Assembly: GCF_003254525.1 (NCBI RefSeq)
Contig: NZ_QFYS01000006.1
Coordinates: forward strand, 186,001-250,000
Length of the DNA stretch: 64,000 nt
Direction of reading: 5' to 3'
Origin: Phenylobacterium kunshanense
GTDB lineage: Bacteria; Pseudomonadota; Alphaproteobacteria; Caulobacterales; Caulobacteraceae
Shown: one piece after another, positions 7,233-32,186 of the stretch
Numbering within the stretch: the stretch's first letter is position 1
Layout: the number at the start of each line of letters is the position of its first letter
Made by a program: the position numbers and the translations under genes
Notes under the pieces: generated by a model
Seen by the model: only the letters and a program-made list of their open reading frames with translations
What the model was told of the DNA's origin: nothing
Databases searched by the model: none

Positions 7233-7246
7233 CAAACACCTGTTTG
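7233..7246. promoter_or_regulatory. Perfect palindrome CAAACACCTGTTTG, putative operator site 1
   Basis: A 14-base perfect palindrome of the form CAAACANNTGTTTG lies 62 bases upstream of the TTG start of the MoxR gene and 61 bases after the preceding stop codon. Two other sites of the same form are found at 15598-15611 and 32173-32186. The symmetry and the AT-rich half-sites in GC-rich DNA suggest a binding site for a dimeric repressor. The form fits the CAAAC-N4-GTTTG boxes described for PsrA-type TetR regulators of fatty acid metabolism; the regulator here is not visible. Confidence 0.65.
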
Positions 7247-7308
7247 CACCGCGCCGTCCCGCGCGGCACAATCGGGCTTTCATCGTTCGATTTCGAAAGC
7301 CTGAGACT

Positions 7309-8259
7309 TTGACCATTTCCCAGACGGCGGCGAATGCGCCCGCCGACCCGATGTCCTCGGTCGAGGCCCTGATCGAGGGCCTGGCCAGCGTCGGCTACAT
7401 CGCCTCCCGCCGCATCGCCACGGCGCTCTACATGGCGGTCAAGCTGGAGAAGCCGATTCTGGTCGAGGGCTCGGCCGGCGTCGGCAAGACCGAACTGGCG
7501 CTCTCAACCGCCAAACTGCTCGGCCTGCCCTTGATCCGGATGCAGTGCTACGAGGGCCTCGACGAGTCAAAGGCGCTGTACGAGTGGAAGTACGGCAAGC
7601 AGCTCCTCTACACCCAGATCCTCAAGGACCGGATGGGCGAGGCGCTGGCCGACGCCGCCGACATGGACGAGGCCATGGTCCGCCTGCACGGCATGGGCGA
7701 CCTCTTCTATTCCGAGCCGTTCCTCGAGCCGCGCCCGCTGATGCGCGCCCTGAAGGAAGACGACGGCTGCGTCCTGCTGATCGACGAGATCGACAAGTCG
7801 GACGAGGCCTTCGAGGCCTTCCTGCTGGAGGTGCTGTCGGCCTACCAGGTCTCGGTGCCCGAGCTGGGCGTGCTGAAGGCCAAGACGCCGCCGCTGGTGT
7901 TCCTGACCTCGAACAATGTCCGCGACCTGGGCGACGCCCTGAAGCGCCGCTGCCTGCACCTGCATATCCCGCTGCCCGAGGCGGCGCTGGAGGAGCGGAT
8001 CGTCGCCAGCCGCGTGCCGGGCATCGAGGCCAAGCTGACCCGGGAGCTGGTGGCCTTCGTCCAGTCCCTGCGCACCATGGACCTGCGCAAGGCGCCCTCG
8101 ATCTCCGAGACCGTGGACTGGGCCCGCGCCCTCGTGCTGCTGCACGCCGACAGCCTGGGCGCCGACGTGGTCCGCGACACCCTGAACGTCATCCTCAAGT
8201 TCGAGCAGGACATCGCCGCCGTCGAGCCCCAGGTGGTCGAGCTGCTGCACAAGCGCTGA
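7309..8259 (+). CDS. MoxR-family AAA ATPase (CoxD-like)
   Basis: Cytosolic AAA+ ATPase of 316 residues. Walker A is GSAGVGKTEL at about residue 55, Walker B is VLLIDEIDKSD at about 154-164, and FLTSNN is a sensor-1 type segment. MoxR proteins act with VWA-domain partners as chaperones that insert metal cofactors or remodel complexes, and the VWA partner follows 12 bases downstream. I used the TTG at 7309; an ATG at 7351 would remove only 14 unconserved residues, and neither has a strong ribosome site. A palindromic operator lies upstream at 7233. The CoxD resemblance is by family; no carbon monoxide dehydrogenase genes are present. Confidence 0.87.
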   Translation: MTISQTAANAPADPMSSVEALIEGLASVGYIASRRIATALYMAVKLEKPILVEGSAGVGKTELALSTAKLLGLPLIRMQCYEGLDESKALYEWKYGKQLLYTQILKDRMGEALADAADMDEAMVRLHGMGDLFYSEPFLEPRPLMRALKEDDGCVLLIDEIDKSDEAFEAFLLEVLSAYQVSVPELGVLKAKTPPLVFLTSNNVRDLGDALKRRCLHLHIPLPEAALEERIVASRVPGIEAKLTRELVAFVQSLRTMDLRKAPSISETVDWARALVLLHADSLGADVVRDTLNVILKFEQDIAAVEPQVVELLHKR

Positions 8260-8271
8260 GGTGGCGCGGCC

Positions 8272-9636
8272 ATGATGCAGCACACCCTCGAGGAGTTCTT
8301 CCGCGCCCTCCGCGCCGCGGACGTCCGCGTCTCGCCGGCCGAGGCGATCGACGCCTCGCGGGCGGTGGCGATCACCGGCTATGCCGACCGCGAGCTGTTC
8401 AGGGACGGCCTGTGCTCGGCCCTGGCGAAATCCGAGGACGAGGTCGGGCGCTTCGACCAGGTGTTCGAGACCTTCTTCGCCCGCGACGCGGTCCAGCTCC
8501 AGCCGCCTCCCGAGGAGGGCCATCAGGAACTCTCGGATGAGGACCGAGCCCAGGTGGCCGACAGCGCCCTCGCCAAGGCCGTACTGGAGGGCGACGCCAA
8601 CCAGGTCCAGCAGGCGATGGAGCAGGCCGCCACCCGCGCCGGCGTCGCCGAGATTCGCCTGACCACCCAGCGCAGCCGCATGACCCGCCGCCTGCTGGAG
8701 GAGATGGGCCTGGAGGAAATCGAGCGGATCATCGCCAACGCCCGCCGGATGCCCGACGGCAAGGGCGAGGGCCTGGCCGAGCGCCTGGAAGGCGCGCGCC
8801 GCAACCTGTTCGAACAGGCGCAGCTCTACGTCGCCCGCCAGCACGAGCTCTATGCCGCCGGCTCGGCCCAGGCCCTGCGCGAGGAGCGCCTGGCCCGCAA
8901 GCAGCTCAACGCCGACGGCGGGGTCGATCCGGTCGACTATCAGCTCATGCAGGGGCTGGTGCGGAAGATGGCCAAGCGGCTGGCCGCCAAGTACTCGCGC
9001 CGCCGCCACGTGGCCAACAAGGGCCACCTCGACGTCCGCAAGACCCTGCGCAAGTCGCTGGCCTATGGCGGCGTGCCGTTCGACATCGAGTTCAAGACCA
9101 AAAAGATCGACAAGCCGTCGATCGTGGCGATCTGCGACGTCTCCAAGTCGGTCGCCGCCGCCGCCCAGTTCCTGCTGACCTTCCTCTACTCTCTGAATGA
9201 GGTCGTCGACCGGATGGAGGCCTTCGCCTTCTCAGGCCGGATGATCAGCGTGAACGACATCCTCGACGACCACGGCGTCGAGCAGGCGATCTTCAAGGTG
9301 CTCCAGGAGATCGGCTTCCAGCAGACCGACTACGGCCGTTCGCTGCAGGACTTCGCCGACCAGCACCTCGACAGCCTGGACCGCCGGACCACGGTGATCT
9401 TCCTGGGCGACGGCCGCTCGAACTTCGCCGACCCGCGCCTCGACATCATGAAGCAGATCCACGACCGCTCGCGGGCGGTGATCTGGCTGAACCCCGAGCC
9501 CGAGAGCTACTGGGGCCAGGGCGACAGCGTCATGAACCGCTATGCCCGCTTCTGCCACGTGGCCAAGCAGTGCGGCACCATCGAGCAGTTGGAGCGGATC
9601 ATCGAGGACGTGCTCCGGAGCTACGTCCCCCACTGA
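8272..9636 (+). CDS. VWA domain-containing CoxE-like protein
   Basis: A 454-residue protein, probably cytosolic, whose C-terminal half is a von Willebrand A domain of the CoxE type. The MIDAS motif DVSKS is at residues 289-293 (ICDVSKSV), and the later TTVIFLGDGRSN supplies the distal metal site. The N-terminal part is helical and charged. In characterised systems the CoxE protein works with the MoxR-type CoxD in maturation of a molybdenum enzyme active site. Here the two genes form an operon of their own, and the nearest molybdenum hydroxylase genes are 6 kb away on the other strand. The gene ends 6 bases before the stop of the convergent transporter gene. Confidence 0.87.
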   Translation: MMQHTLEEFFRALRAADVRVSPAEAIDASRAVAITGYADRELFRDGLCSALAKSEDEVGRFDQVFETFFARDAVQLQPPPEEGHQELSDEDRAQVADSALAKAVLEGDANQVQQAMEQAATRAGVAEIRLTTQRSRMTRRLLEEMGLEEIERIIANARRMPDGKGEGLAERLEGARRNLFEQAQLYVARQHELYAAGSAQALREERLARKQLNADGGVDPVDYQLMQGLVRKMAKRLAAKYSRRRHVANKGHLDVRKTLRKSLAYGGVPFDIEFKTKKIDKPSIVAICDVSKSVAAAAQFLLTFLYSLNEVVDRMEAFAFSGRMISVNDILDDHGVEQAIFKVLQEIGFQQTDYGRSLQDFADQHLDSLDRRTTVIFLGDGRSNFADPRLDIMKQIHDRSRAVIWLNPEPESYWGQGDSVMNRYARFCHVAKQCGTIEQLERIIEDVLRSYVPH

Positions 9637-9642
9637 CGGTGC

Positions 9643-11142
9643 TCACGGCCCCAGGCCCGGCGCCGCCTGCGCCGCGCGCTTGGCGCGGAGATTGGCGACG
9701 ATCTGCTCATGACGCGCGCGCGTGATCGCGTAGGGCGCGAAAATCAGGGCGCCCAGGATGCACAGCGCCGCTGGCAGCGGCCCCCAGCCAATCACGAGCC
9801 CCTTGAGGACGTCTTCGGCCACGACCGCGTCCACCTGCCGGCCCAGGTCGCGGGGGAAACGCAGCAGATCAAGCGCGAATCCGCCAACCAGCGTACCTAC
9901 CCCCGCCGCGGCCTTGCCGGCGAACCCGAGCCCCGAGAAGAACAGGCCCTCGCGCCGGACGCCGAAGAGCTGTTCGTGCTCGTCGGCGGCGTCTGACATC
10001 ATCGACGGATAGGCGATGAAGATGAGTCCCGATGCGATCCCCACGAAGAAGGTGGTGGCGCACAGCCAGGGCAGGGCCTCAACGCCGGTCAGGGTGAACA
10101 CCTCGGCCACGCGCAGCACGGGCAGCACCGTGTAGGCCACGACGATTGCGGCGAGCCCCATCACCACCACCGCCTTCTTCTCCATTCCCCGCAGGAGCGC
10201 CGGCGTCATCGGGATGCCGATGAGAATGCCGAAGAGGTAGGCGTAGACCGTGTACTGGATCGTCTCGGGTCGTAGCTTCCACACGAAGACGTAGTTGTGG
10301 CTCTGCAGGGCGCTGTGCAGACCGGCCGCGCTCGTGAACAGCAGCATCGACAGGAAAAGGATCCGGAACGAGCGGTTACGGGCCATTTCCGTCAGTTCAC
10401 CCAGGAACCGACGCCCCATGGGCTCGGGCGCATGCACGGGCTGGGGCAGCCGTGCGGCATAGCGCCAGATGCCGGCGCAGCAGATCAGGCCGCCGGCCAG
10501 GACGATGGCGGCGATCGCCCAGCCGAAGCTGGGGTAGTTCCCGGGCCGCTGCAGACCGCCCTCGCCCGCGAAGAAAATGGAATAGGCCAGGGCATTGATG
10601 AGCACCGTCGCCAGCACGCCGGCGAGCAGGCGCCAGGCGACGATCCGCGCCCGCTCGGCGTAGTCGTCGCTCATCTCCCCGGCCAGAGCGAAGTAGGGGA
10701 TGTTGTAGACTGAGGCGAAAGCCCGGACGCTCATCTTGGTGACGGTCAGCCAGAGGAACAGCAGGAACGGCGTCAGGCCGGCGGGCGGCGAGAACAGCAG
10801 GCCCATGGTGACCATGGTCAGCGGCGCCCCGATCAGCATCACGGGAAGCCTGCGGCCGAAACGCGAGCGGACGCTGTCGGACCACGAACCGATCAGCGGA
10901 TCGGCGACCGCGTCCAGCACCAGGCTGATCGCCAGCGCGGCGCCGACCATGCTGCCCGACAGCCCCAGCACGGCCGTGTAGTAGAAGAAGATGAAGCCGT
11001 TGACGGCGAGATAGCCGGACTCGACGATCTGCCCGACGCTGTAGAAGAACTTCACCCCGCCGGGTGGCTTCGCATGAGCTGCGCTCTCCACGGCGCCATC
11101 ACTCGCGGGAATACTGCCGCCTACGCCTTCCACGACCGCCAC
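9643..11142 (-). CDS. GPH-family (MFS) cation symporter
   Basis: Inner-membrane transporter of the glycoside-pentoside-hexuronide:cation family, 499 residues with about 12 hydrophobic segments. The family loop after the second segment is seen as ADPLIGSWSDSVRSRFGRR. I chose the GTG at 11142 because GGGAGGA stands 8 bases before it; an upstream GTG at 11211 has no ribosome site. The gene is the last of three on the minus strand after the acyl-CoA carboxylase and the oxidoreductase, with a 75-base gap to the latter. GPH proteins usually carry sugars, but distant members carry other organic solutes. The link to an acyl-CoA pathway here makes a sugar substrate doubtful. Confidence 0.87.
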   Translation of the reverse strand: MAVVEGVGGSIPASDGAVESAAHAKPPGGVKFFYSVGQIVESGYLAVNGFIFFYYTAVLGLSGSMVGAALAISLVLDAVADPLIGSWSDSVRSRFGRRLPVMLIGAPLTMVTMGLLFSPPAGLTPFLLFLWLTVTKMSVRAFASVYNIPYFALAGEMSDDYAERARIVAWRLLAGVLATVLINALAYSIFFAGEGGLQRPGNYPSFGWAIAAIVLAGGLICCAGIWRYAARLPQPVHAPEPMGRRFLGELTEMARNRSFRILFLSMLLFTSAAGLHSALQSHNYVFVWKLRPETIQYTVYAYLFGILIGIPMTPALLRGMEKKAVVVMGLAAIVVAYTVLPVLRVAEVFTLTGVEALPWLCATTFFVGIASGLIFIAYPSMMSDAADEHEQLFGVRREGLFFSGLGFAGKAAAGVGTLVGGFALDLLRFPRDLGRQVDAVVAEDVLKGLVIGWGPLPAALCILGALIFAPYAITRARHEQIVANLRAKRAAQAAPGLGP

Positions 11143-11217
11143 GCTTGTTCCTCCCGAGCGGTTCTTGTTGGAACCGACGGTATCTGGACGTGACGGCGTG
11201 GCAACAGTCACGTCGCG

Positions 11218-12234
11218 TCAGGGTTCAGGAGAAACCTGGATCAGCAGCTTGCCGTCGTGATTGCCGGTGAACAGGCGCTGCAGAGAGTCCATGGCGCCCT
11301 CCAGGCCCTGGTCCACGTGAACCTTCCACTTCAGCTTGCCCTCGGTGACCCAGGGGATCAGCTCGGCCATCGCCTCCCCGGCCCGCGGCAGGAAATCCGT
11401 GACGATGAAGCCGCGGATGGTCAGGCGGTGCATCAGCACCCGCACGAAGTCGGTCGGCCCGGCGGGTCGGCGGTCGTCGTTGTAGGTCGAGATCATCCCG
11501 CACAGCGGCATGCGGCCGAAGTTGTTCATCCGCGAGACCACGGCGTCCATGATGTCGCCGCCGACGTTCTCGAAGTTCACGTCGATCCCGTTCGGGCACA
11601 GGCGGTCCAGGGCCGCGCCGACGTCTTCGTGCTTGTAGTCGATGGCCCCGTCGAACCCGAGTTCGCCCGTCAGCCAGTCGCACTTGGCCTTGCCGCCGGC
11701 GATGCCGATGACCCGCGCGCCCTTGAGCTTCGCGATCTGCCCGGCCACCGAGCCAACCGCGCCCGCGGCGGCCGAGACCACCACCGTCTCTCCGGGCTGG
11801 GGCTTGCCGATGTCGCACATGCCGAACCAGGCGGTCAGGCCCGTGGCGCCCAGCACGCTCATATAGGCCGTCAGCGGCACGCCCGGCAGCTGCGGCGCGG
11901 GCATCAGGAAGGCCCCGTTCGCGATCGTGTGGGTGCTCCAGCCGCCGAGGCCGGTGTTGACCACGTCGCCCTGCTTGAACCGGTCGGAGCGCGACCGTTC
12001 CACCACGCCCAGCGAGCCGCCGCGCATGGTCTCGCCGATCTGCACCGGCGGCATGTACTGGTCCTGGTCGCTCATCCAGATGCGGTTGGTCGGGTCGAGC
12101 GACAGGTACAGCGTGCGCACCAGCACCTCGCCGTCGGCCAGGTCGCGGATCGGCTCCTCGACCAGCTCCAGGTCGCCCGGCTTGATCTCGCCCGCCGGCC
12201 GGTTGCGCAGCACCCAGCGCTTCAGGTTCGCCAT
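11218..12234 (-). CDS. NADP-dependent medium-chain oxidoreductase (curA/leukotriene reductase type)
   Basis: Cytosolic, zinc-free MDR enzyme of 338 residues that typically reduces carbon-carbon double bonds of enones with NADPH. The N-terminal family region is RTLYLSLDPTNRIWM and the nucleotide-binding motif is AAAGAVGSVAGQIAKLKG. The ATG at 12234 follows a good ribosome site (GGGAGGAACGAGAG). The gene lies 73 bases after the carboxylase and is likely cotranscribed with it and with the transporter. Its natural substrate is not evident; a role in handling unsaturated acyl or ketone compounds fits the neighbours but is inference. Confidence 0.9.
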   Translation of the reverse strand: MANLKRWVLRNRPAGEIKPGDLELVEEPIRDLADGEVLVRTLYLSLDPTNRIWMSDQDQYMPPVQIGETMRGGSLGVVERSRSDRFKQGDVVNTGLGGWSTHTIANGAFLMPAPQLPGVPLTAYMSVLGATGLTAWFGMCDIGKPQPGETVVVSAAAGAVGSVAGQIAKLKGARVIGIAGGKAKCDWLTGELGFDGAIDYKHEDVGAALDRLCPNGIDVNFENVGGDIMDAVVSRMNNFGRMPLCGMISTYNDDRRPAGPTDFVRVLMHRLTIRGFIVTDFLPRAGEAMAELIPWVTEGKLKWKVHVDQGLEGAMDSLQRLFTGNHDGKLLIQVSPEP

Positions 12235-12307
12235 CTCTCGTTCCTCCCGTTGACCCTACCCTGCCCGCTGCGGCCGCGCTGGCAATGGTGACCCCGCGTC
12301 AGACCTG

Positions 12308-15300
12308 TCACCAGGTGTCGATGAACGGCCGCTTCTTGCCCGGCGCCCGGGGCGGGACGGGGCAGACCTTGAGCCCTCGCACAAGCCAGGCGCGCGTTTC
12401 GGCGGGGTCGATGACCGCGTCGATCTCCACCACCGAGGCCACGGAGAGGGCCTTGCCGGTCTCGTACATCCGGCCGACCAGCTTCTCAAACAGAGCCTTC
12501 TTCGCCGCCTCGTCGGGCTGGGCGTCCAGCTCCTTCTTGTAGCCGAGCCGCACGGCGCCCTCGAGGCCCATGGGCCCGAACTCGGCGGTCGGCCAGGCGA
12601 TGGTCATGGCCGGCGCCGAGAAGTCGCCGCCCGACATCGCCTGCGCCCCGAGGCCATAGCCCTTGCGCAGGACCACCGTGAACAGCGGCACGGTCAGGCT
12701 GGTGGCGGTGACCATCAGGCGCGAGCCGCGCCGGACCGCCGCGGTCGTCTCGCTGGCCGGGCCGACCATGAACCCTGGCGTGTCGCACAGCGACAGCACC
12801 GGCACGTCGAAGGCGTCGCAGAGCTGCAGGAACCGCCCGGCCTTTTCCGCTCCCTCGGAGTCGATCGCCCCGCCCAGGTGGCGCGGGTCGTTGGCGAACA
12901 GGCCCATCGGCCGGCCCTCGATCCGCAGGAAGCCGGTGATCATCCCCTTGCCGTAGCCGCCGCGCAGCTCGATCCACGACCCTGTGTCGGCCAGGGTGCG
13001 GATCACCTCGCGCACCTCGTAGGCCCGTACCCGGTTCTCCGGGATCAGGTGGCGAAGGCGCCGCTGGTCCTCGCAATCCCAGTCGCGCACCGCGCCCTGG
13101 AACATGCCCAGGATGTGCTTGGCCGCAGCCGTCGCCTCGGCCTCGTCCTCGGCCAGCACGTCGATGGCGCCGTTGGCGTACATGACGTCCGACGGCCCGA
13201 TCTCGTCCGGCGTGAAGACGCCGAGGCCGCCGCCCTCGATCATCGCCGGACCGCCCAGGCCGATGTTCGAGTAGCGGGTGGCGATGGTCACGTCCGCGCA
13301 GCCGAAGAAGATGGCGTTGCCGGCGAAGCAGCGGCCCGAGTTGATCGAGATCCTCGGCGCCAGGCCCGACAGTCGAGCGAAAGTGGTGAAGCTGGTGGTG
13401 TCCAGCGACGAGGCCGAGAGCTGGCCGCCGTCCACATCGCCGGGCCGGCCGCCGCCGCCCTCGGTGTACCAGATGATCGGCGCCTTCCAGTGCTCGGCGA
13501 ATTCCAGGATCCGGTCGGTCTTCTTGTGATTGAAATGGCCTTGCGTCCCCGCCAGCACGGTGAAGTCGTAGGCGAGGCCCACGCACCGCGCCTTGTCCTC
13601 GTCGAACAGCCGGCCGTTCACCTCACCGACGCCGGTGACAATGCCGTCGGCGGGCGTGTTGACCTGCAGGTCGGCCAGTTCACGCCGCCGCCGCTGGGCG
13701 GCGATGGCCATGGCCCCGTACTCCTGGAAGCTGCCCGGATCGAACAGGTCGTCCAGGTTCTCCCGCGCGGTCCGCTGGCCGGTCTTGCGCCGCCGCGCCA
13801 CCGCCTCGGGCCGCGCCGCGTCCAGGGTGATCCGATGGCGCTCGATCACCTCGGCTAGGTCGGGCCGGATGTGGTCCAGGTCGATGGCGGCCTCGGCGTC
13901 GTCCACGGTCGCGCCTGCCTCATCGACCTCCAGGAAGGCCAGCGGGTTTCCCTCGAAGACGGTCTCGCCGATCTCCACCGCCAGGGCGCGGACCACGCCG
14001 GCGGCCTCGGCCGCGATGACGTGCTCCATCTTCATGGCTTCCAGGATCACCAGCGCCTGGCCCTTGCGGACCGTCTCGCCCGCCTCCGCTGCGAGGCCGA
14101 TGACCGTGCCCTGCAGCGGCGAACGCAGCGCCGTCGTGCCGGCGGGCGCCTGCGGCTCGGCTCGTGCGCCGCCCGACGTCTCGCCCCGCGCCGCGGCGTC
14201 GAAATAGAGCCGCGGATGCGCCTCGGGCTCGCCGGTGAGCTCGGACATGTGCTGCTCGATGAAGCGGGTGTGGACCTCGCCGGCCGCCACGGCGGGATGA
14301 GCCAGCAGGTTCTGCAGGAAGGCGATATTGGTCGGGCTGCCCTCGATGCGGAACTCCGACAGGGCCCGGTAGGCCTTCGCCACCGCGCGGCTGAGGCCGC
14401 CGGCGCCGGCATGGACGATCACCTTGGCCATCAGGCTGTCGAAGCGGGCGCTCGTGAGATAGCCGGCGTAGCCGAAGCCGTCGACGCGCACGCCGGGTCC
14501 GGACGGCGGCTCGAACACCGACAGCGTCCCGCCCGCCGGTTTCGCCGACCCGTCCGCCGCCATCGTCTCCAGGTTCACCCGCGCCTGCACCGCATGGCCA
14601 CGCGGCTCCGGAATGCGATCCTGGGTCACCGCCAGCTCGGCCAGGGTGTGGCCGGCGGCGATCTGGAGCTGCAGCCGCACGAGGTCGAGGCCGGTGACCT
14701 CCTCGGTGACCGTGTGCTCCACCTGCAGGCGGGCGTTGCCCTCGATGAACACCGCCTCGTCGCCATCCACGAGGAACTCGATCGTGCAGAGGCCGCGGTA
14801 GCCGGCGGCCCGGCCCAGGGCGACGGCATGGGCGAACAGCCGCTCGCGCACGGCCGCCGGCAGCATGTCGGCCGGCGCGATCTCCACCACCTTCTGGCGC
14901 TGGCGCTGAAGCGAGCACTCGCGGTCGTAGAGGTGGCTCACAGCGCTCCCGTCACCGACGATCTGCACCTCGATGTGCCGGGCGTGCGGCAGGAACCGCT
15001 CGACGTAGAGGTCGCCGTTGCCGAACGCCGCCATCGCCTCCGACGCACATCGCGCGAACGCCGCCTCCAGCTCCTCGATCGTGGCCGCCGGCCGCATGCC
15101 CCGTCCGCCGCCGCCGGCCACGGCCTTGACCATCACCGCGCCGTTCGCGGCCAGGAACGCCTTTGCCTCGTCGAGCGTGGTCGGCCCATCCGTGCCGGAC
15201 AGCACGGGCACGCCGCAGCTCTGCGCCAGCGCCCGGGCGCGGCCTTTGTCACCGAACAGCTCCAGCGTTTCCGGTGTCGGACCGACGAAGATCAGGCCGG

Positions 15301-15586
15301 CCTCGGCGCAGGCGCGGGCGAAGGCCGCGTTCTCGGCCAGGAAGCCGTAGCCGGGATGCACCGCGTCGGCGCCCGCTGCCTTGGCCGCGGCCACCACCTG
15401 GGAGATGTCGAGATAGGCCGCTGGCCCCGAGCCCTTCAGCGCCACGGCCTGGTCGGTCTTGCGCACGTGCAGGGACGCCGCGTCGTCTTCCGAGAAGACG
15501 GCCACGGTCGACAGGCCCATCTCGGCCGCCGTCCGCGCGATGCGCACCGCGATCTCGCCCCGGTTCGCGATCAGAAGCGTCTTCAC
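12308..15586 (-). CDS. Single-chain long-chain acyl-CoA carboxylase (biotin carboxylase, BCCP and carboxyltransferase fused)
   Basis: A 1092-residue biotin enzyme with all three functions in one chain. Biotin carboxylase occupies residues 1 to about 450 (KTLLIANRGEIAVRIARTA, the glycine-rich loop GGGGRGMR, and EGNARLQVEHTVTEE). The biotin carrier domain is at about 490-560 with the biotinylated lysine Lys519 in EAMKMEH. The carboxyltransferase domain starts at about 610 (TARENLDDLFDPGSFQE). This domain order matches the long-chain acyl-CoA carboxylases known from Mycobacterium and Rhodopseudomonas, which carboxylate acyl-CoAs of varied chain length. I chose the GTG at 15586, which has GAGGGG at -7; the usual BC start sequence begins there. 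The operator CAAACACTTGTTTG at 15598-15611 runs into that ribosome site. Confidence 0.93.
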   Translation of the reverse strand: MKTLLIANRGEIAVRIARTAAEMGLSTVAVFSEDDAASLHVRKTDQAVALKGSGPAAYLDISQVVAAAKAAGADAVHPGYGFLAENAAFARACAEAGLIFVGPTPETLELFGDKGRARALAQSCGVPVLSGTDGPTTLDEAKAFLAANGAVMVKAVAGGGGRGMRPAATIEELEAAFARCASEAMAAFGNGDLYVERFLPHARHIEVQIVGDGSAVSHLYDRECSLQRQRQKVVEIAPADMLPAAVRERLFAHAVALGRAAGYRGLCTIEFLVDGDEAVFIEGNARLQVEHTVTEEVTGLDLVRLQLQIAAGHTLAELAVTQDRIPEPRGHAVQARVNLETMAADGSAKPAGGTLSVFEPPSGPGVRVDGFGYAGYLTSARFDSLMAKVIVHAGAGGLSRAVAKAYRALSEFRIEGSPTNIAFLQNLLAHPAVAAGEVHTRFIEQHMSELTGEPEAHPRLYFDAAARGETSGGARAEPQAPAGTTALRSPLQGTVIGLAAEAGETVRKGQALVILEAMKMEHVIAAEAAGVVRALAVEIGETVFEGNPLAFLEVDEAGATVDDAEAAIDLDHIRPDLAEVIERHRITLDAARPEAVARRRKTGQRTARENLDDLFDPGSFQEYGAMAIAAQRRRRELADLQVNTPADGIVTGVGEVNGRLFDEDKARCVGLAYDFTVLAGTQGHFNHKKTDRILEFAEHWKAPIIWYTEGGGGRPGDVDGGQLSASSLDTTSFTTFARLSGLAPRISINSGRCFAGNAIFFGCADVTIATRYSNIGLGGPAMIEGGGLGVFTPDEIGPSDVMYANGAIDVLAEDEAEATAAAKHILGMFQGAVRDWDCEDQRRLRHLIPENRVRAYEVREVIRTLADTGSWIELRGGYGKGMITGFLRIEGRPMGLFANDPRHLGGAIDSEGAEKAGRFLQLCDAFDVPVLSLCDTPGFMVGPASETTAAVRRGSRLMVTATSLTVPLFTVVLRKGYGLGAQAMSGGDFSAPAMTIAWPTAEFGPMGLEGAVRLGYKKELDAQPDEAAKKALFEKLVGRMYETGKALSVASVVEIDAVIDPAETRAWLVRGLKVCPVPPRAPGKKRPFIDTW

Positions 15587-15597
15587 TGGCGTCCCCT

Positions 15598-15611
15598 CAA
15601 ACACTTGTTTG
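15598..15611. promoter_or_regulatory. Perfect palindrome CAAACACTTGTTTG, putative operator site 2
   Basis: A 14-base palindrome immediately upstream of the long-chain acyl-CoA carboxylase. Read on the minus strand, its last G is the first G of the Shine-Dalgarno GAGGGG, and the GTG start follows 11 bases after the palindrome. The same fusion of palindrome and GAGGGG occurs at site 3 (32173-32186). A protein bound here would cover the start of the transcript or block transcription directly. An RNA hairpin is less likely because the stem would be short and AU-rich. Confidence 0.72.
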
Positions 15612-15677
15612 GGACGCATCATGCAAAGGCCGCAGCGAAGGTCGAGGAGTTTCCGCCTCTCCCTTCGCCCTACGCGC

Positions 15678-17900
15678 TTAGGCCTTCAGCATATCCGGCG
15701 TGATCGGCAGGCTCCGCACCCGCTTGCCCGTCGCCGCGAAGATGGCGTTGGTCAGCGCCGGGATCGCCGGCGGCAGGGCCGGCTCGCCCAGGCCGGTCGG
15801 GTTGAAGTCCGTCTTCAGGAACTTCACCTCAACCGGGCACGCCTCCGAGATCCGCATCAGCGGATAGTCGGTGAAGTTGCTCTGCTCAGCGGCGCCGTTC
15901 GCGATGGTGATCTGCTGGTGCAGCGCCTCGGAAAGGCCGTCCAGCACCGAACCCTGCACCTGGTTGAGCGCGCCCGCCGGATTGATGATCTGACGTCCCA
16001 CATCCGCAGCGACCCAGACCTTCTTCACCTTCACCGCGCCGTCGGGCGAGACCGCCACATGGGCGACTTCGGCGAAATAGCCGAGATGGCTGTAGTAGCA
16101 GCCGACGCCCATGCCTTCGCCCTTGGGCAGCTTGCCGCGATCCGCCCAGCCCGACATCTCGCCCACGGCCTTCAGCACGCCGCGCATGCGGCCCGCGCCA
16201 AAGGCGGCCGGCGGCTCGCCGACCACGTCCTTGTCACCCAGCAGCTTGAGCTGGAACGCCAGGGGATCCTGGCCGGCCGCGTGTGCCAGCTCGTCGATGA
16301 ACGACTGGAAGACGAACGCCAGCGCGTTGGACCCCGGCGCCCGCAGCGGCCCGGTGGGCACGCCCAACGGCATCGGCGAGACTTCATAGCGGACGTTCGG
16401 CACGAAGCGGGCCGGGAACTCGGCGGCGGACATGCCCGCGCTGGGCGCCGGGCCTTCACCGTGGCTGGGCGTGACGAAGTGGTCGGACAGCGCGATCAGA
16501 TTGCCCTGCGCGTCCACGCCGCCCTTCAGGAAGTGCCAGCCCGCCGGACGGTAGTGGTCGTGCTGCATGTCGTCTTCGCGCGTCCAAACCAGCTTTACCG
16601 GGGCCTTCGCCTCGCGCGCGATCCAGGCGGCCTCGACCATGTAGTCGTTGGCCAGACGGCGGCCGAAACCACCGCCGCCGCGGACCATGTGCACCGTGAT
16701 GTCCTCGGGCTTCAGCCCCAGCGTCTTGGCGCAGAGCTGGCGGCCCGGCTCGGGGTTCTGGGTCGGCGCCCACACCTCCAGCTTGCCGTCCTTGAATTCG
16801 GCGGTGCAGTTCTGCGGCTCGAGGTTGGCGTGGCTGAGGAACGGATAGGCGTAGGCTGCCTCCACCGTCTTGGCGGCCCCCTTCAGCGCCGCATCGACGT
16901 CGCCGTCATTGCGCGTCTGGCGCACGCCTTTGCCGGCAGCCAGCTCCTTGGCCTTGGCGGCGAAGCCCGCGCTGGATTGCGCCGCGCTGGGATGGTCGGC
17001 CCATTTGACGTTGAGGCGGTCGCGCCCTTTGCGCGCGGCCCACCAGCTGTCGGCCACCACGGCCACGCCGGGCATCAGCCCCTGGCCGATCTGGCCCGGA
17101 CCCGGCGTGAAGGCGTTCGGGTCGCCCTCGACGATGAAGGCGGCCTTCACGCCCTTGACGGCCTTGGCCGCTTCCAGGTCCGCGCTGGCGACCTTGGCGC
17201 CGAACACCGGGGCCTTGATGAAGGTCGCGTACAGCATCCCCGGCCGGCGCTGGTCGATGCCGAACAGCGGCTGGCCCGTCACGATCTTGGCGGTGTCGTA
17301 CTGCGGCTGCGGCTTGCCGACGATGCGATAGTCCTTGGCGTCCTTCAGCGGCACGGTCTTTGGATCGGGCGGGGTGACGCTGGCGCAGGCAAGAGCGAGC
17401 GAGCCGTAGGTCCGCTTCTTGCCCGAAGGCTTGTGCACCACATGGCCGGGCGTGGTCGTGCAGTCGCCAGGGCCACAGTTCCACGCCGTGGCCGCCGCCT
17501 GGATCAGCATGGCGCGCGCCACCGCGCCCACGCGGCGGAGCTCGTCCCAGTGCATGGGCGTCGCCATGCTGCCGCCGGCGAACTGGCGGCCGTAGGTCTT
17601 GGGATCGTTCGGGGCCATCTCGACCCGCACGTCCTCCCACGCCACGTCGAGCTCCTCGGCGATCAGCATGGGCAGCATGGTCTTCACGCCCTGGCCCACG
17701 TCGGGGCTCTTGGCGAGGATGGTCACCTGGCCGTTGGGCGCGACGGTGACGTAGGCGTTCAGTGGCCGCAGCGCGTCGTCCTGCGCGTGCGCCTTGCCGG
17801 CCATGGCGAAGCCTAGGGTCAGGCCGCCGGCGCCGACCGACACCAAGACCTCGCGGCGGTTCGCGCCCGACTCCGGCGGCGACTTGTCATGATAGGTCAT
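15678..17900 (-). CDS. Molybdopterin-binding subunit of a xanthine dehydrogenase family hydroxylase (IorB-like)
   Basis: Large catalytic subunit of a two-subunit molybdenum hydroxylase, 740 residues. The N-terminus is a probable Tat signal (twin arginine in NRREVLVSVGAG, hydrophobic stretch, then KAHAQ), so the folded enzyme is likely exported to the periplasm. Cofactor-contact motifs include GGGGFGRRL and the C-terminal GLGEPALPPAIPALTNAIF, whose glutamate is the expected catalytic base. The closest named type is isoquinoline 1-oxidoreductase beta subunit; many relatives are periplasmic aldehyde oxidases. The Fe-S subunit is encoded 3 bases upstream. No separate FAD subunit and no electron-accepting cytochrome gene are in the window. 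Confidence 0.92.
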   Translation of the reverse strand: MTYHDKSPPESGANRREVLVSVGAGGLTLGFAMAGKAHAQDDALRPLNAYVTVAPNGQVTILAKSPDVGQGVKTMLPMLIAEELDVAWEDVRVEMAPNDPKTYGRQFAGGSMATPMHWDELRRVGAVARAMLIQAAATAWNCGPGDCTTTPGHVVHKPSGKKRTYGSLALACASVTPPDPKTVPLKDAKDYRIVGKPQPQYDTAKIVTGQPLFGIDQRRPGMLYATFIKAPVFGAKVASADLEAAKAVKGVKAAFIVEGDPNAFTPGPGQIGQGLMPGVAVVADSWWAARKGRDRLNVKWADHPSAAQSSAGFAAKAKELAAGKGVRQTRNDGDVDAALKGAAKTVEAAYAYPFLSHANLEPQNCTAEFKDGKLEVWAPTQNPEPGRQLCAKTLGLKPEDITVHMVRGGGGFGRRLANDYMVEAAWIAREAKAPVKLVWTREDDMQHDHYRPAGWHFLKGGVDAQGNLIALSDHFVTPSHGEGPAPSAGMSAAEFPARFVPNVRYEVSPMPLGVPTGPLRAPGSNALAFVFQSFIDELAHAAGQDPLAFQLKLLGDKDVVGEPPAAFGAGRMRGVLKAVGEMSGWADRGKLPKGEGMGVGCYYSHLGYFAEVAHVAVSPDGAVKVKKVWVAADVGRQIINPAGALNQVQGSVLDGLSEALHQQITIANGAAEQSNFTDYPLMRISEACPVEVKFLKTDFNPTGLGEPALPPAIPALTNAIFAATGKRVRSLPITPDMLKA

Positions 17901-17903
17901 GGC

Positions 17904-18368: not shown

Positions 18369-18470
18369 CGCCCGTCGTCTCCGCCTTGTGCGGTCATGCT
18401 ACCGCGCGGACCGGGCGGGGCAAAGCGCGGGTGAATGACAGAACGGCAATGTTCGTCGCGCCGTCGCCGC

Positions 18471-22897: not shown

Positions 22898-23041
22898 TCG
22901 AACTATCACCCTCAAGAAGCACGCAAGCGCCTGGTACGTGCGGTCTTCCCCCGTCCAGGTGCTTAGCAAATGCTACGCGATCATCACAGCGCCGGATGCG
23001 TCTGAGCGCGGATCATGTTCGTATGGCTGGGCGGAGGTCGG

Positions 23042-23836: not shown

Positions 23837-23843
23837 GTTCCGA

Positions 23844-24869: not shown

Positions 24870-24883
24870 GGCGGGGGGAAATC

Positions 24884-25285
24884 ATGCTGAGACTGATCGC
24901 GACCTACCTGGCGACCGCGGTCGCCTTCGCGGCCATGGACTATGTCTGGCTGACGCAGGCGGGCCCCAAGGTCTATTTCCCGACCCTCGACCCCGTCGCC
25001 CTGCGCGAGGCGCGGATCGGACCCGCGGTGGTCTTCTACTTCGTCTACATCGCCGGCGTCCTGGCCCTCGCCGTCTGGCCGACCCGCGACAAGCCGCTGA
25101 TCAAGACCACCCTCACCGGCGCGATGCTGGGCGCCCTCTGCTACGCCACCTACGACCTCACCAACCAGGCGACGCTGAAGGTCTGGTCCACGCACATCAC
25201 CCTGATCGACATCACCTGGGGCACGTTCCTTACCGCCGTCGGGGCGACCGCGGGCGGCTGGACGCTCCGAAAGCTTACGCGCTGA
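24884..25285 (+). CDS. DUF2177 membrane protein
   Basis: A 133-residue integral membrane protein with four hydrophobic segments; the family is recognised by FAAMDYVWLTQAGPKVY and the later CYATYDLTNQATLK. The ATG at 24884 has GGGGGGAA just upstream and follows the methyltransferase by 14 bases. DUF2177 genes are commonly found with this lipid cluster and with anti-sigma/ECF systems in alphaproteobacteria. Its function is unknown. Confidence 0.9.
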   Translation: MLRLIATYLATAVAFAAMDYVWLTQAGPKVYFPTLDPVALREARIGPAVVFYFVYIAGVLALAVWPTRDKPLIKTTLTGAMLGALCYATYDLTNQATLKVWSTHITLIDITWGTFLTAVGATAGGWTLRKLTR

Positions 25286-25293
25286 GGGAAGGC

Positions 25294-26226: not shown

Positions 26227-26396
26227 TGGCCAAGCGTGGCGGGAGTTGTCGCCGCTGACAAGGCGACCACATGCCTGCCGCTACATGTCGCCGCCGCAAC
26301 GTACTCGGCGTTGTCCGCCCGCCTTCCGCCGTGTCATGGTCGTTTTCGAAGAACGGGAATGACGCCGCCTCAAGACGGCGCACGGAGGAAGACGGG

Positions 26397-27980: not shown

Positions 27981-28049
27981 AGCCCGCCCCTGGCGGTTTC
28001 CGGACGTCGCATCTAGGGTCCCCCAAACCTGTTTTTCGGGGGATTCCAG

Positions 28050-29342
28050 TTGAAGACGTTCGCCCTGGCTGCACTCTGCGCCGCCGCCATCGCCCTGCCC
28101 GCCGCCGCCCAGACGGCGGGGACTACCTTCGTCCAGGCCGGACGCGTTCTGGTCGACCCCGCGAGCGGCAAGGTCGAGACGCAGAAGACCCTGGTGATCC
28201 AGGGCGGCAAGGTGGTGCGGGTCGCCGACGGCTACGTCTCCGAGCCCGGCGGCAAGGTCGTCGACCTTAAGGATCGGTTCGTCCTGCCCGGCCTGATCGA
28301 CAGCCATGTCCACATCACCGGCCAGCAGAACCCGAACAGCCGCCTGGAAGAGGTGACCCAGTCGGGCGCCGAGCAGGCGATGGTGGGCGCCCGCTACGCC
28401 CGCAAGACCCTGATGGCCGGCTTCACCACCGTGGCCGACCTCGGCGGCGACAACGAGGCCGTCTTCGCCCTGCGCAAGGCCACGGCCCTCGGCGACGTTC
28501 CCGGACCGCGCATCGTCGCCGCCGGCTCGGCGATCTCGATCCACGGCGGCCATGGCGACGTGAACGGCTACCGCGAGGACGTGATGCACGTGCTGCGGCC
28601 GGAGTCGGTCTGTTCCGGCGCGGCCGACTGCTCGCGCGCGGTCCGCGAACAGGTCTGGAAGGGCGCCGACGTCATCAAGATCACCGCCACCGGCGGCGTG
28701 CTCTCGAACACCGCCGCGGGCCTGGGCCAGCAGTTCTCGGACGAGGAGCTGAAGGCGATCGTGGACTCCGCGCACCGCATGGGTCGCCGCGTGACGGCCC
28801 ACGCCCACGGGGGCGACGGCATCACCAGCTTCCTGAAGGCCGGCGGCGACTCCATCGAACACGGCACCTGGCTCGACGCCGAGGGCATCGCGCTTCTCAA
28901 GAAGAACGGGGGCTACCTCGTGCCGACCCTGATGGCGGGCGACTTCGTGGTCGGCATCGCCAAGGGCCCGAACAACTTCTTCACCCCCGCCCAGACCGCC
29001 AAGGCGCTGCAGGCCGGACCGATGATGCTGGATATGACTCGGCGCGCGCATCAGGCCGGCGTCAAGATCGCCTTCGGCACCGACACCGGAGTCTCGGCCC
29101 ACGGCGACAACGCCGGCGAGTTCGCCCTCCTGCTGAAGGCGGGCATGACCTCGCTGGAGACGATCCAGGCCGCCACGGTCAACGCCGCCGACCACCTGCA
29201 GCTGGGCCAGGTCGCCGGCCGCCTCACCCCCGGCTACAGCGCCGACCTGATCGCCGTGGACGGCGACCCGACCAAGGACGCCACGATCCTGACCAAGGTC
29301 GGCTTCGTGATGAAGGACGGGGTCGTTTACAAGGCCGAGTGA
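28050..29342 (+). CDS. Exported amidohydrolase family protein
   Basis: Metal-dependent hydrolase of 430 residues with a signal peptide (KTFALAALCAAAIALPAAAQ). The amidohydrolase metal-site motif is HVHITGQQN, with IKITATGG, the later histidine region (AHAHGGDGI, DSIEHGTWLD) and the conserved aspartate in AFGTDTGVSAHGD. Related Caulobacter enzymes cleave Xaa-Pro or Xaa-Arg/Lys dipeptides, so a periplasmic dipeptidase is a fair guess. The TTG start at 28050 is supported by GGGGGA six bases upstream. It follows the acyl-CoA synthetase by 69 bases on the same strand but need not be functionally linked. Confidence 0.88.
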   Translation: MKTFALAALCAAAIALPAAAQTAGTTFVQAGRVLVDPASGKVETQKTLVIQGGKVVRVADGYVSEPGGKVVDLKDRFVLPGLIDSHVHITGQQNPNSRLEEVTQSGAEQAMVGARYARKTLMAGFTTVADLGGDNEAVFALRKATALGDVPGPRIVAAGSAISIHGGHGDVNGYREDVMHVLRPESVCSGAADCSRAVREQVWKGADVIKITATGGVLSNTAAGLGQQFSDEELKAIVDSAHRMGRRVTAHAHGGDGITSFLKAGGDSIEHGTWLDAEGIALLKKNGGYLVPTLMAGDFVVGIAKGPNNFFTPAQTAKALQAGPMMLDMTRRAHQAGVKIAFGTDTGVSAHGDNAGEFALLLKAGMTSLETIQAATVNAADHLQLGQVAGRLTPGYSADLIAVDGDPTKDATILTKVGFVMKDGVVYKAE

Positions 29343-29351
29343 CGCCGCTGC

Positions 29352-29373
29352 GTCGGATGGGAAATCATCCGAC
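29352..29373 (+). terminator. Hairpin GTCGGATG-CATCCGAC after the amidohydrolase
   Basis: An 8-base perfect inverted repeat with a 6-base spacer begins 10 bases after the stop codon of the amidohydrolase. It has no T-run, so it is only a possible terminator; it could also be an operator of the aminotransferase gene at 29423. Confidence 0.4.
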
Positions 29374-29422
29374 ACCAAGCGTGTTTGGCCGCGGCGCGCG
29401 ACGCAGGGCATAAGCCGCGGCC

Positions 29423-30583
29423 ATGATCCCGTTCATCGATCTCCAGGCCCAGCGGGCCCGCCTCGGCCAGCCGCTGGAGGACGCGATCCTCAAGGTGGTC
29501 CGCTCGGGCGCCTACGTCATGGGCCCCGAGATCGCCCAGTTCGAGGCCGAGCTCGCCGCCTTCGGCCAGGCGCCCTTTGCGCTGTCGTGCGGCTCGGGCA
29601 CCGAGGCCCTCGTGCTGCCGCTGATGGCCTGGGAGATCGGACCCGGGGACGCGGTCTTCTGCCCGTCCTTCACCTTCGCCGCGACCGCAGAGGCGATGCC
29701 GCTTGTGGGCGCCTCGCCGGTGTTCGTGGACGTGCTGCCCGACACCTACAACCTCGACCCCGCCAAGCTCGACGCCGCGATCCAGGCCGTGAAGGCCGAG
29801 GGCAAGCTCACGCCCCGTGCCGTGATCGCCGTCGACCTGTTCGGCCAGCCCGCGAACTATCCGGCCATCGCGGCCGTCTGTGCGCAGCATGGCCTGAAGC
29901 TGATCGCCGACAGCGCCCAGGGCTTCGGCGGCACGCTCCGGGGTCACCACCCGATCCACTGGGCGGACGTGACCACCACCTCGTTCTTCCCGGCCAAGCC
30001 GCTGGGCTGCTACGGCGACGGCGGGGCGGTGCTGTGCAAGGACGTGCGCCTTCACGACCTGCTGGTCTCCTTGCGCGTCCACGGCCAGGCGGTGAAGTCC
30101 GACCTGGAAGGCCGCACCTTCGACCATGACCCCAAATACCTGAACATGCGGGTCGGGATGAACAGCCGGATGGACACCATCCAGGCCGCGGTGCTCTTGC
30201 AGAAGCTGACCATCTTCGCCGACGAGATCGAGGCCCGGAACAACGTCGCCGCCCGCTACGCCGAGGGCCTCGGCGACGTGGTCCGCACGCCAGCCGTGAT
30301 GGACGGCGGCGTCTCCGTCTGGGCGCAATACACCATCGAGACCGACGACCGCGACGGCCTGGCGGCCCACCTGCGGGGCGAGGGCGTTCCGACGGCGGTC
30401 TACTATCCGATCCCGCTGCACAGACAGGCGCCCTACGCCCGCTATCCGCAGCCCGGCGGCCTGCCGGTGACGGAGGCCGCGGCCGGGCGGGTCATCAGCC
30501 TGCCCATGCACGCCTACCTCCAGCCCGAAACCCAGGACGTGATCATCTCGGCGATCCGCAACTGGGTGAAGCGGAACGGCTAG
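29423..30583 (+). CDS. DegT/DnrJ/EryC1/StrS family aminotransferase
   Basis: PLP-dependent sugar aminotransferase family protein of 386 residues. The N-terminal motif IPFIDLQAQRA is typical, CGSGTEAL binds the cofactor phosphate, DSAQGFG carries the aspartate that pairs with the pyridine, and FFPAKPLGCYGDGG contains the PLP lysine. Such enzymes transaminate keto groups on nucleotide sugars for polysaccharide or lipopolysaccharide. No nucleotide-sugar genes stand beside it, so it is an orphan here and its substrate is open. The ATG at 29423 starts straight at the conserved region. Confidence 0.93.
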   Translation: MIPFIDLQAQRARLGQPLEDAILKVVRSGAYVMGPEIAQFEAELAAFGQAPFALSCGSGTEALVLPLMAWEIGPGDAVFCPSFTFAATAEAMPLVGASPVFVDVLPDTYNLDPAKLDAAIQAVKAEGKLTPRAVIAVDLFGQPANYPAIAAVCAQHGLKLIADSAQGFGGTLRGHHPIHWADVTTTSFFPAKPLGCYGDGGAVLCKDVRLHDLLVSLRVHGQAVKSDLEGRTFDHDPKYLNMRVGMNSRMDTIQAAVLLQKLTIFADEIEARNNVAARYAEGLGDVVRTPAVMDGGVSVWAQYTIETDDRDGLAAHLRGEGVPTAVYYPIPLHRQAPYARYPQPGGLPVTEAAAGRVISLPMHAYLQPETQDVIISAIRNWVKRNG

Positions 30584-30613
30584 GCCGGCGGCTCCCTTTG
30601 CGTGCGCTCGGAT

Positions 30614-30640
30614 GACAATTCCCCTCGGCGGGGAATTGTC
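30614..30640. terminator. Strong 11-base hairpin between the aminotransferase and the PEPxxWA gene
   Basis: GACAATTCCCC at 30614-30624 and GGGGAATTGTC at 30630-30640 pair perfectly over 11 bases with a TCGGC loop. It lies 30 bases after the aminotransferase stop and 74 bases before the next start. No T-run follows (TCTAG), and half of the stem is AT-rich, unlike usual terminators here, so a protein-binding palindrome is also possible. Confidence 0.55.
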
Positions 30641-30714
30641 TAGCTTCCGGCCGGCAAATCACGCCTGAACGTCGCCACCGGCGAGGGTGCGCCGGCATTG
30701 AGTCGGGGATTCTG

Positions 30715-31368
30715 ATGAAGTTGAAGATCGCAGCCGCTTTCGCGGCCTTTTCCATGCTGTCCGTCGGCGGCGCGGCCCAGGCCGCCGTCATCTACGACAA
30801 CTTCACCCGCAGCGAATACCACGCTCAAATCTCGAACTACGGCTACACCGCGGTCTTCCAGTCCAACATTGACCAGACGATCAACCAGATTGGCTCCCGT
30901 CTTCGAGGCGGCGAATCCGACGTCAAGTTCGTGATCATCGATCTGGGCAATGGCGTCGACCCGACTTCCACTGGCCAGACCGTGTTCAGCGATGTGAGCC
31001 ACGTCGTCGCCGGCGAAGGGTACGACTGGTTCTATTCCGATCTGTTCTCCTTCAACCTCAACGCTGGACGCTGGTACGCCGTCGGCGCCGTCGGCGCGCC
31101 AGGCTCTCCCCTGTACGTGAGCGGTGACTACGCCGCTCCGATCAACCCCGGCCCGACGTTCACGGCCTATTCCAACCGGAACATGAACGTCATGAGCTAC
31201 GACAACCCTGACAGCAATCTCGGTTTCGCCTGCTGCAACTTCCACACCCGGCTGCTCACCAGCGACAGTGTAGGCGCGGTGCCCGAGCCGGCGACCTGGG
31301 CGCTGATGATCCTCGGTTTCGGCAGCGCGGGCGCGATGCTCCGCCGGACCCGCTTCGCCGCGGCCTGA
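30715..31368 (+). CDS. PEPxxWA-CTERM sorting domain protein (1 of 5)
   Basis: Exported protein of 217 residues with a signal peptide (residues 1 to about 23, cleavage after AAQA) and a C-terminal sorting tail: VPEPATWALMILGFGSAG followed by a hydrophobic stretch and an LRR-type basic end. The middle domain is beta-rich (YDNFTRSEYHAQISNYGY) and has no family I can name; two adjacent cysteines occur in GFACCNFHT. Proteins of this type are thought to be recognised at the tail by an exosortase-like enzyme and delivered to the cell surface or matrix. No sorting enzyme gene is present in the window. Confidence 0.88.
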   Translation: MKLKIAAAFAAFSMLSVGGAAQAAVIYDNFTRSEYHAQISNYGYTAVFQSNIDQTINQIGSRLRGGESDVKFVIIDLGNGVDPTSTGQTVFSDVSHVVAGEGYDWFYSDLFSFNLNAGRWYAVGAVGAPGSPLYVSGDYAAPINPGPTFTAYSNRNMNVMSYDNPDSNLGFACCNFHTRLLTSDSVGAVPEPATWALMILGFGSAGAMLRRTRFAAA

Positions 31369-31394
31369 GGCCCGGCGCGGACATGTTCGACGAA

Positions 31395-31422
31395 GGGGCT
31401 CCGGCGGCGACGCCGGAGCCCC
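31395..31422 (+). terminator. Intrinsic terminator between convergent genes
   Basis: A 12-base GC-rich stem (GGGGCTCCGGCG and CGCCGGAGCCCC) with a GCGA tetraloop, preceded by AA and followed by TTT, lies 27 bases after the PEPxxWA gene stop. It also faces the stop of the convergent VOC gene at 31445, so it can serve both directions. Confidence 0.8.
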
Positions 31423-31444
31423 TTTCGCATAGGGAGGTCGGTGG

Positions 31445-32125
31445 TCAGGCCTCCAGCGAGCCGGTGATCGACGCGCGCTGGGACAGCTCGATCCAGTTGC
31501 CGTCGGGATCGCGCACCATCGAGATACGCGCCGTTGTTCCCAGCGTCACGGGCGCCAGCGCCTCGCGCCCTCCAGCCGCCAGGACCTTGGCGTGCTCGGC
31601 GTCAACCTTGAAGACCTGGAGGGTGATGTAGCGCCAGCCCGGCCCCTGCATCTGGGCGTCGGCCGGCGCATCCGGATCGGCCTCCAGCAGGACGAGGCTC
31701 TCGCCGGCGCGGAACACGCCCGGCCGCTCCTCCGGCAGACCCAGGGCCTGGCCATAGAAGCGCCGATGGACCTCGACGTCGCGCACGCCGAGCCGCACGC
31801 CGATCTGGGTGACGCCCTCGAAGCCCGGTGGGACGAGCGTGACCCGATTGCCTTCGGGATCGGCCATGGCCTTCGGGGCCGCCAGCCCTTGGCGCGCGAT
31901 CAGCAACTCGCGGTAGCCGCTGGGCGGGGTGGCCGGCAGCGGCGCCTCGTGGTGGTTGATCTTCAGCACGCTACCGAGCACGTCGTGCCGGTGCTGGTCC
32001 TGGCCGCGCCGGATCGGCAGTACGTGATCCAGCGGAACGCCCACCTCACCCTGCCAGAACGCCAGCATGGGCTGGAGGTCGTTGGTCGCGAGTCCGATGT
32101 CGATGCGCGGCTTGGCCAGTTCCAT
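31445..32125 (-). CDS. VOC family protein with two glyoxalase-fold domains
   Basis: Cytosolic protein of 226 residues made of two vicinal-oxygen-chelate modules, one at about 1-100 (RIDIGLATNDLQPMLAFWQG) and one at about 110-226 (RLGVRDVEVHRRFYGQALGL, ending with VRDPDGNWIELSQ). Candidate metal ligands include the histidines of KINHHEAPL and the C-terminal glutamate. Members of this superfamily are glyoxalases, ring-opening dioxygenases or antibiotic-binding proteins; nothing here singles one out. The ATG at 32125 has GGGGAGGG before it. It is divergent from the quinone oxidoreductase at 32200, and an operator-like palindrome lies between. Confidence 0.87.
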   Translation of the reverse strand: MELAKPRIDIGLATNDLQPMLAFWQGEVGVPLDHVLPIRRGQDQHRHDVLGSVLKINHHEAPLPATPPSGYRELLIARQGLAAPKAMADPEGNRVTLVPPGFEGVTQIGVRLGVRDVEVHRRFYGQALGLPEERPGVFRAGESLVLLEADPDAPADAQMQGPGWRYITLQVFKVDAEHAKVLAAGGREALAPVTLGTTARISMVRDPDGNWIELSQRASITGSLEA

Positions 32126-32172
32126 GGCACCCTCCCCTTGCGTCAGCACCATCGGCATGGAATGTGTGAAGT

Positions 32173-32186
32173 CAAACAGATGTTTG
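32173..32186. promoter_or_regulatory. Perfect palindrome CAAACAGATGTTTG, putative operator site 3
   Basis: A 14-base palindrome in the divergent region between the VOC gene (start 32125) and the quinone oxidoreductase (start 32200). Its last G is the first base of GAGGGG, the ribosome site of the oxidoreductase, exactly as at site 2. The shared string TGTTTGAGGGGA at both sites argues for a common design rather than chance. Confidence 0.72.

Follow-up and report, generated by a model that had tools for sequence, protein, structure and literature searches.

The 14-base palindrome CAAACANNTGTTTG stands in three exact copies, at 7233, 15598 and 32173, in a 64,000-nucleotide stretch of Phenylobacterium kunshanense DNA (contig NZ_QFYS01000006.1, positions 186,001 to 250,000; this whole stretch is here called the window). 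From sequence comparisons, we propose that these palindromes are very probably operators for a TetR repressor of the PsrA type, whose gene lies elsewhere in the genome in a coxE2-tetR operon that would be autoregulated; the repressor's DNA binding, repression and ligand are all predicted. The original prediction, made from the letters of the window, had reported these three copies and no further one in the window, and they proved to be the sole exact copies in the genome (4,184,663 bases, 46 contigs); the pattern written backwards has 0 copies in the same 4.18 Mb. The prediction had also held chance copies to be unlikely in DNA this rich in GC, and shuffling bears this out: with up to two mismatches, the window holds four matches, versus a mean of 0.33 in shuffled sequences, and 0 of 100 shuffles reach four. 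Genome-wide, the same tolerance yields 43 sites versus 18 for the control.

Related operator forms near the same kinds of genes in relatives led to a strict pattern, CRAACRNNYGTTYG. In the P. kunshanense genome this pattern has 19 sites, spread over many contigs, versus 2 for the reversed control, and this wider operator family has its strongest members in the three exact copies. Seventeen of the 19 strict sites lie upstream of genes (gene starts being our own estimates), many of which encode fatty-acid, flavin or NAD(P)H enzymes; the danger named in the original prediction, that sites elsewhere in the genome would fall mostly inside genes, did not materialize. Because degenerate operators occur on many contigs and exact copies are scattered in relatives, we reject a regulon confined to 25 kb.

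The likely regulator is the product of a tetR gene on another contig (G000:C40:124629-125285), placed behind coxE2, with a strict site on contig C40 16 bp upstream of the coxE2-tetR pair. This supports the earlier suggestion that the regulon is controlled from elsewhere, no regulator standing beside any of the three sites. The sole TetR match in the window (47188-47772) lacks any match to PsrA and differs in its helix; considered as a local regulator, it was rejected. The original prediction had advised looking for a TetR gene with the same site in its own promoter; such a gene exists, with the amendment that the promoter belongs to the coxE2-tetR operon. The relative G017 has an exact site before coxE2 and tetR behind it, and the own-genome orthologue of that TetR is 84% identical. 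The protein carries a TetR_N helix-turn-helix (HTH) domain (PF00440; 56.3 bits, cut-off 24) and a TetR_C_30 domain (Pfam), and its best PDB match (E 4.5e-20) is 2fbq, named there 'probable transcriptional regulator', which we take to be PsrA (PA3006). The recognition helix reads AGVNLASVNYHFGSK in this TetR versus AGVNLAAVNYHFGSK in 2fbq. Its HTH is the nearest to PsrA among those compared, and GVNLASVNYHFGSK is found only in this TetR among the 43 TetR HTH matches of the genome (40 plus 2 others compared).

The arrangement at tetR was followed through named genomes, in the best 80 of 568 relatives, many of them titled Phenylobacterium or Caulobacter; 70 loci were scored, 10 of the 80 with short upstream DNA being left out, and coxE was found by a loose motif. 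coxE lies upstream of tetR in 39 of the 70 loci, and the operator stands just before coxE in 38 of these 39. The exception, L224, has CAAACGCTCGTTGG before coxE, which departs from the strict pattern at one position. The control pattern occurs upstream of tetR in 0 of 70 loci. Some tetR loci without coxE have weaker sites near tetR. At many Caulobacter tetR loci (L228-L258), the estimated start of tetR has a CGAACGNNCGTAAG-like palindrome some 65-85 bp upstream, which is perhaps a variant operator.

Across genomes, exact sites were found in 25 of 36 genus genomes (46 sites, control 0) and in 7 of 24 other-family genomes (8 sites, control 3), that is, in 32 of 60. A TetR orthologue of at least 74% identity is present in 32 of the 36 genus genomes, counting that of G006, which is in two pieces, and taking the 36% match in G021 as no orthologue. 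These 32 genomes together hold 413 strict sites (7-20 per genome) versus 43 for the control; the four genus genomes without the TetR (G007, G021, G030 and G035) hold 9 versus 8, and the 24 other-family genomes 128 versus 129. Targets that recur in relatives are quinone oxidoreductase, short-chain dehydrogenase/reductase (SDR), nitronate monooxygenase, acyl-CoA dehydrogenase, transhydrogenase and glutathione transferase, those without a Pfam call being named from sequence.

Conservation is clearest for the third copy in the window. Operator 3 (CAAACAGATGTTTG; 32173..32186, exact match, no strand assigned) is separated by 13 bp from the downstream ATG of a gene for a quinone oxidoreductase of the zinc-binding dehydrogenase family (32200..33165, plus strand; domain search). 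With up to two mismatches and within 150 bp, it is kept at 27 of 30 loci, own included (control 1 of 30); the oxidoreductase was found in 32 genomes, 30 of which gave loci (G014 and G023 were left out). The operator is lost although the gene is kept in G007, G030 and G035, all of them genomes without the TetR.

Several observations weigh against our proposal. A rank test of site excess against TetR presence gives p 0.0007 with independent events uncounted; in the oxidoreductase tree G007, G030 and G035 group together (one clade, support 0.99), so that TetR and operator are jointly absent once, not three times. G030 is, in addition, only 82% complete. In G021, where no orthologue was found, there are 4 strict sites (control 0) and operator 3 is retained; this genome is 77% complete and groups with the TetR-bearing G022 in the oxidoreductase tree, and its TetR gene is probably missing from the assembly only. 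The 31 of 70 tetR loci without coxE upstream, many of them from Caulobacter, have 0 strict sites within 1.7 kb (L230, where coxE and operator lie farther upstream, is counted among these). The best NCBIfam model for the TetR is the PsrA equivalog NF053516, at 107.3 bits, which misses the 300-bit cut-off, and PsrA is also the best NCBIfam model, more weakly, for two paralogues in the same genome (66.9 and 62.5 bits). Since the TetR falls far below the equivalog cut-off, 'PsrA-type' is right and 'PsrA' is not. Finally, operators 1 and 2 are missing in most relatives scored and, being kept in a minority of scored loci, are recent or easily lost. The idea that sites are kept upstream of orthologous genes in related species thus stands for operator 3 and, for operators 1 and 2, holds in a minority of relatives.

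Operator 1 (CAAACACCTGTTTG; 7233..7246, exact match, no strand assigned) lies 62 bp upstream of moxR1 (7309..8259, plus strand, likely TTG start at 7309), which encodes a MoxR-type AAA ATPase (AAA_5) whose nearest NCBIfam model, MadB, scores below its cut-off. The next gene, coxE1 (8272..9636, plus strand), encodes a VWA protein (PF05762, VWA_CoxE), the presumed partner of moxR1. Seven relatives have an equivalent of operator 1, with 1-3 mismatches, in the corresponding position (about -61 to -74 relative to the estimated start of moxR), which gives 8 of 30 moxR loci scored (own included, up to three mismatches). At up to three mismatches the reversed control appears in 2 of the 30 loci; at up to two, the site scores 8 of 30 and the control 0.

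Operator 2 (CAAACAAGTGTTTG, read on the gene's strand; 15598..15611, exact match, no strand assigned) ends 11 bp before the GTG at 15586 of a gene for a single-chain long-chain acyl-CoA carboxylase of 1092 amino acids (12308..15586, minus strand). The assignment comes from Pfam domains and from the best PDB match, 4rcn, 'long-chain acyl-CoA carboxylase' (1071.6 bits, residues 3-1070 of 1092). An alternative in-frame ATG at 15622 would place operator 2 within the gene; conservation begins at the GTG, which is therefore the likely start. An oxidoreductase gene (11218..12234, minus strand; ADH_N_2 and zinc-binding dehydrogenase domain, domain search) probably shares an operon with the carboxylase, judging by order and strand. 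With up to two mismatches, operator 2 was found in six relatives, or 7 of 27 scored loci with its own (control 0); of the 30 carboxylase loci, 3 were left unscored for want of a recognisable start, and the lower-ranked among the rest may be paralogues. A molybdopterin-binding oxidoreductase gene (15678-17900) is the immediate upstream neighbour of the carboxylase gene, in the same orientation; the MoxR/CoxE pair nearby may have its product as a client.

The domain and PDB matches thus confirm the three targets first named, a MoxR/CoxE operon, a long-chain carboxylase acting on acyl-CoA and a quinone oxidoreductase. Behind the last of these lie two probable members of an inferred operon, encoding an alpha/beta hydrolase (33402..34247, plus strand) and a short-chain dehydrogenase (34268..35050, plus strand). 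Unmentioned in the original prediction is a divergent glyoxalase-like gene (31445..32125, minus strand; Pfam on the frame up to 32119, start read from the frame), which begins at about 32125, some 47 bp from operator 3, and is a possible second target of it. The motif AGGGGA directly follows operators 2 and 3 and can serve as a ribosome-binding site.

Outside the window, the candidate regulon extends to further fatty-acid genes. Two strict sites, C4:9621 and C4:9657, belong to a divergent acyl-CoA dehydrogenase pair, and others lie upstream of an AMP-binding acyl-CoA synthetase-like gene (C11:47573) and an enoyl-CoA hydratase-like gene (C33:54595; named from its translation), so that, judged by its sites, the predicted gene set includes fatty-acid metabolism together with the acyl-CoA carboxylase. 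Divergent acyl-CoA dehydrogenase genes with operators in the common intergenic region were seen in three genomes (L026, L059, L045). Among redox genes, strict sites precede two genes of the nitronate monooxygenase family (C2:103538, C33:195988), a second quinone-oxidoreductase-like gene (C22:187499), a flavin oxidoreductase gene divergent from that of an MscS channel (C11:646059), the gene for NAD(P) transhydrogenase alpha (C36:256699) and a gene without Pfam match that is followed by an SDR gene (C46:146326). A second MoxR-like gene, recognized by its translation, has a site 33 bp upstream (C11:81532), and a TonB receptor gene shares one with a divergent SMP-30 gene (C40:4719). The site before lumazine synthase (C5:53435) is 252 bp away from the gene, with a flavin mononucleotide (FMN) riboswitch in between (RF00050, 78.7 bits; L046:5213-5385, minus strand, G000:C5); because the riboswitch sits between operator and gene, this operon seems doubly controlled. 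In the relative G034, a ribH-like gene is preceded, at about 300 bp, by an exact operator. The two intragenic strict sites fall in a recombinase-like gene (C11:322452) and a trehalose-phosphate-synthase-like gene (C22:661763), both named by reading.

Five further sites, each one mismatch away from the palindrome, fall outside the strict pattern, one of them intragenic and four upstream of genes, namely an old-yellow-enzyme/P450 pair, an ABM gene with an acyl-CoA dehydrogenase gene, an APH gene and a CobS-like gene. The CobS-like AAA gene, a third MoxR-like ATPase gene, has its one-mismatch site 35 bp upstream (L044:5565, G000:C1:22564); this site may be a chance occurrence. Among the 22 sites with two mismatches that likewise fall outside the strict pattern, three of the four that were read lie before an SDR gene, a MaoC-like gene and a nitronate-monooxygenase-like gene (all named by reading), and the fourth, at C34:201116, is in a frame that is unclear.

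In the mechanism that we envisage, a TetR homodimer would bind CAAACANNTGTTTG and its R/Y variants near the promoter or start codon and block transcription. In nine of the 17 upstream cases, the strict site stops 11-36 bp short of the likely start codon, which leaves little promoter room and thus argues for a repressor acting by occlusion rather than an activator. Given a fatty-acid substrate, the repressor would most likely take up a long-chain acyl-CoA or fatty acid as ligand and come off the DNA; that the inducer is probably a long-chain acyl group is suggested by the relation to PsrA and by the targets. Release would switch on the acyl-CoA dehydrogenases, acyl-CoA synthetase, enoyl-CoA hydratase and long-chain acyl-CoA carboxylase, and likewise the NAD(P)H/flavin oxidoreductases, the NAD(P) transhydrogenase, the FMN-riboswitch-led lumazine synthase and the two MoxR/CoxE pairs. 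As the riboflavin and transhydrogenase targets suggest, cofactor supply would rise in step with the flavin and NADP enzymes.

That the three palindromes arose by chance has a negligible probability. In its favour, the intragenic strict sites are as many as the control count (2 each); the shuffles, the control pattern, the conservation of the operator upstream of orthologues and the co-occurrence of site excess with the TetR rule chance out for the palindromes as such. A more serious, still improbable alternative is that the operators belong to another regulator, a different TetR or a MarR, with coxE2-tetR merely one of its targets. A TetR gene can itself be a downstream target, the genome has PsrA-like paralogues, and in the relative G011 two MarR-like genes and one enoyl-CoA hydratase-like gene, all named by reading, have two exact sites nearby (L056:4001, 6224). 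However, this TetR is the sole one of 43 HTH matches to carry the PsrA recognition helix, and the helices of the two nearest paralogues differ from it; strict sites are absent within 2 kb of each of the 42 remaining matches, and the site excess tracks the presence of this TetR.

It is also conceivable, with distinctly less than even probability, that repressor and operators are as proposed and the inducer is something else: an oxidised or unsaturated lipid, say, or else a terpenoid or a xenobiotic electrophile. Redox enzymes outside core beta-oxidation are frequent among the targets; they include the quinone oxidoreductases, the nitronate monooxygenase family and the NAD(P) transhydrogenase, and to these may be added the old-yellow-enzyme family gene with its divergent P450 and the glutathione-transferase-like genes of relatives. 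However, the acyl-CoA synthetase-like, acyl-CoA dehydrogenase, enoyl-CoA hydratase-like and acyl-CoA carboxylase genes are candidate targets as well, and a PsrA-like TetR of Stenotrophomonas is reported (PMC13104628) to bind long-chain fatty acids.

Our proposal of a PsrA-type repressor acting on these palindromes puts forward a regulator and its operator, together with about twenty candidate operons of lipid and redox metabolism in Phenylobacterium, perhaps also in Caulobacter. It also offers a clue to the physiology of two MoxR/CoxE pairs that are uncharacterised. The literature search found no paper that contains the consensus string together with TetR. A 2009 study of fatty-acid regulons in proteobacteria reportedly may mention relatives. 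Among the literature matches listed, in the extracts available, there is no description of such a regulon in Caulobacterales and no mention of PsrA-type control of MoxR/VWA pairs.

The closest known system is PsrA of Pseudomonas. In PMC13104628, the PsrA box is given as C/GAAACN2-4GTTTG/C and the PsrA site of P. putida rpoS as TTCAAACN4GTTTGAA, and the Stenotrophomonas PsrA-like TetR is said to have similar inverted repeats in its own promoter. CAAACANNTGTTTG fits the box as given there letter for letter, so that the agreement in form first noted for the palindrome holds. The system described here shares with Pseudomonas PsrA the operator form, the helix GVNLA[A/S]VNYHFGSK, an operator in its own promoter and targets in acyl-CoA metabolism. 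Unlike it, our TetR scores 107 bits versus the NCBIfam cut-off of 300 (a model perhaps tuned to Vibrio, to go by its short name), the autoregulatory site precedes a coxE2-tetR operon, and the candidate targets include MoxR/CoxE pairs, a transhydrogenase and an FMN-riboswitch ribH. By description rather than by sequence, the proposed regulon also resembles those of FadP, FabR and LiuQ, TetR regulons of fatty-acid or acyl-CoA genes, of which FadP and LiuQ are unique to betaproteobacteria among the classes studied, according to PMC5343134. The pairing of MoxR with VWA_CoxE in a target operon recalls NorQ/NorD, CoxD/CoxE and RavA/ViaA, and MoxR/VWA pairs are described, in literature extracts, as maturation or metal-insertion chaperones. 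We offer, as a tentative idea that is more doubtful than the operator assignment, that the two MoxR/CoxE pairs belong to core lipid catabolism in Phenylobacterium, maturing or inserting the cofactor of an enzyme or electron-transfer complex that acyl-CoA oxidation requires. If they have this role, the repressor and the chaperone subunit coxE2 would be united in one operon, and lipid sensing and maturation would therefore be set jointly.

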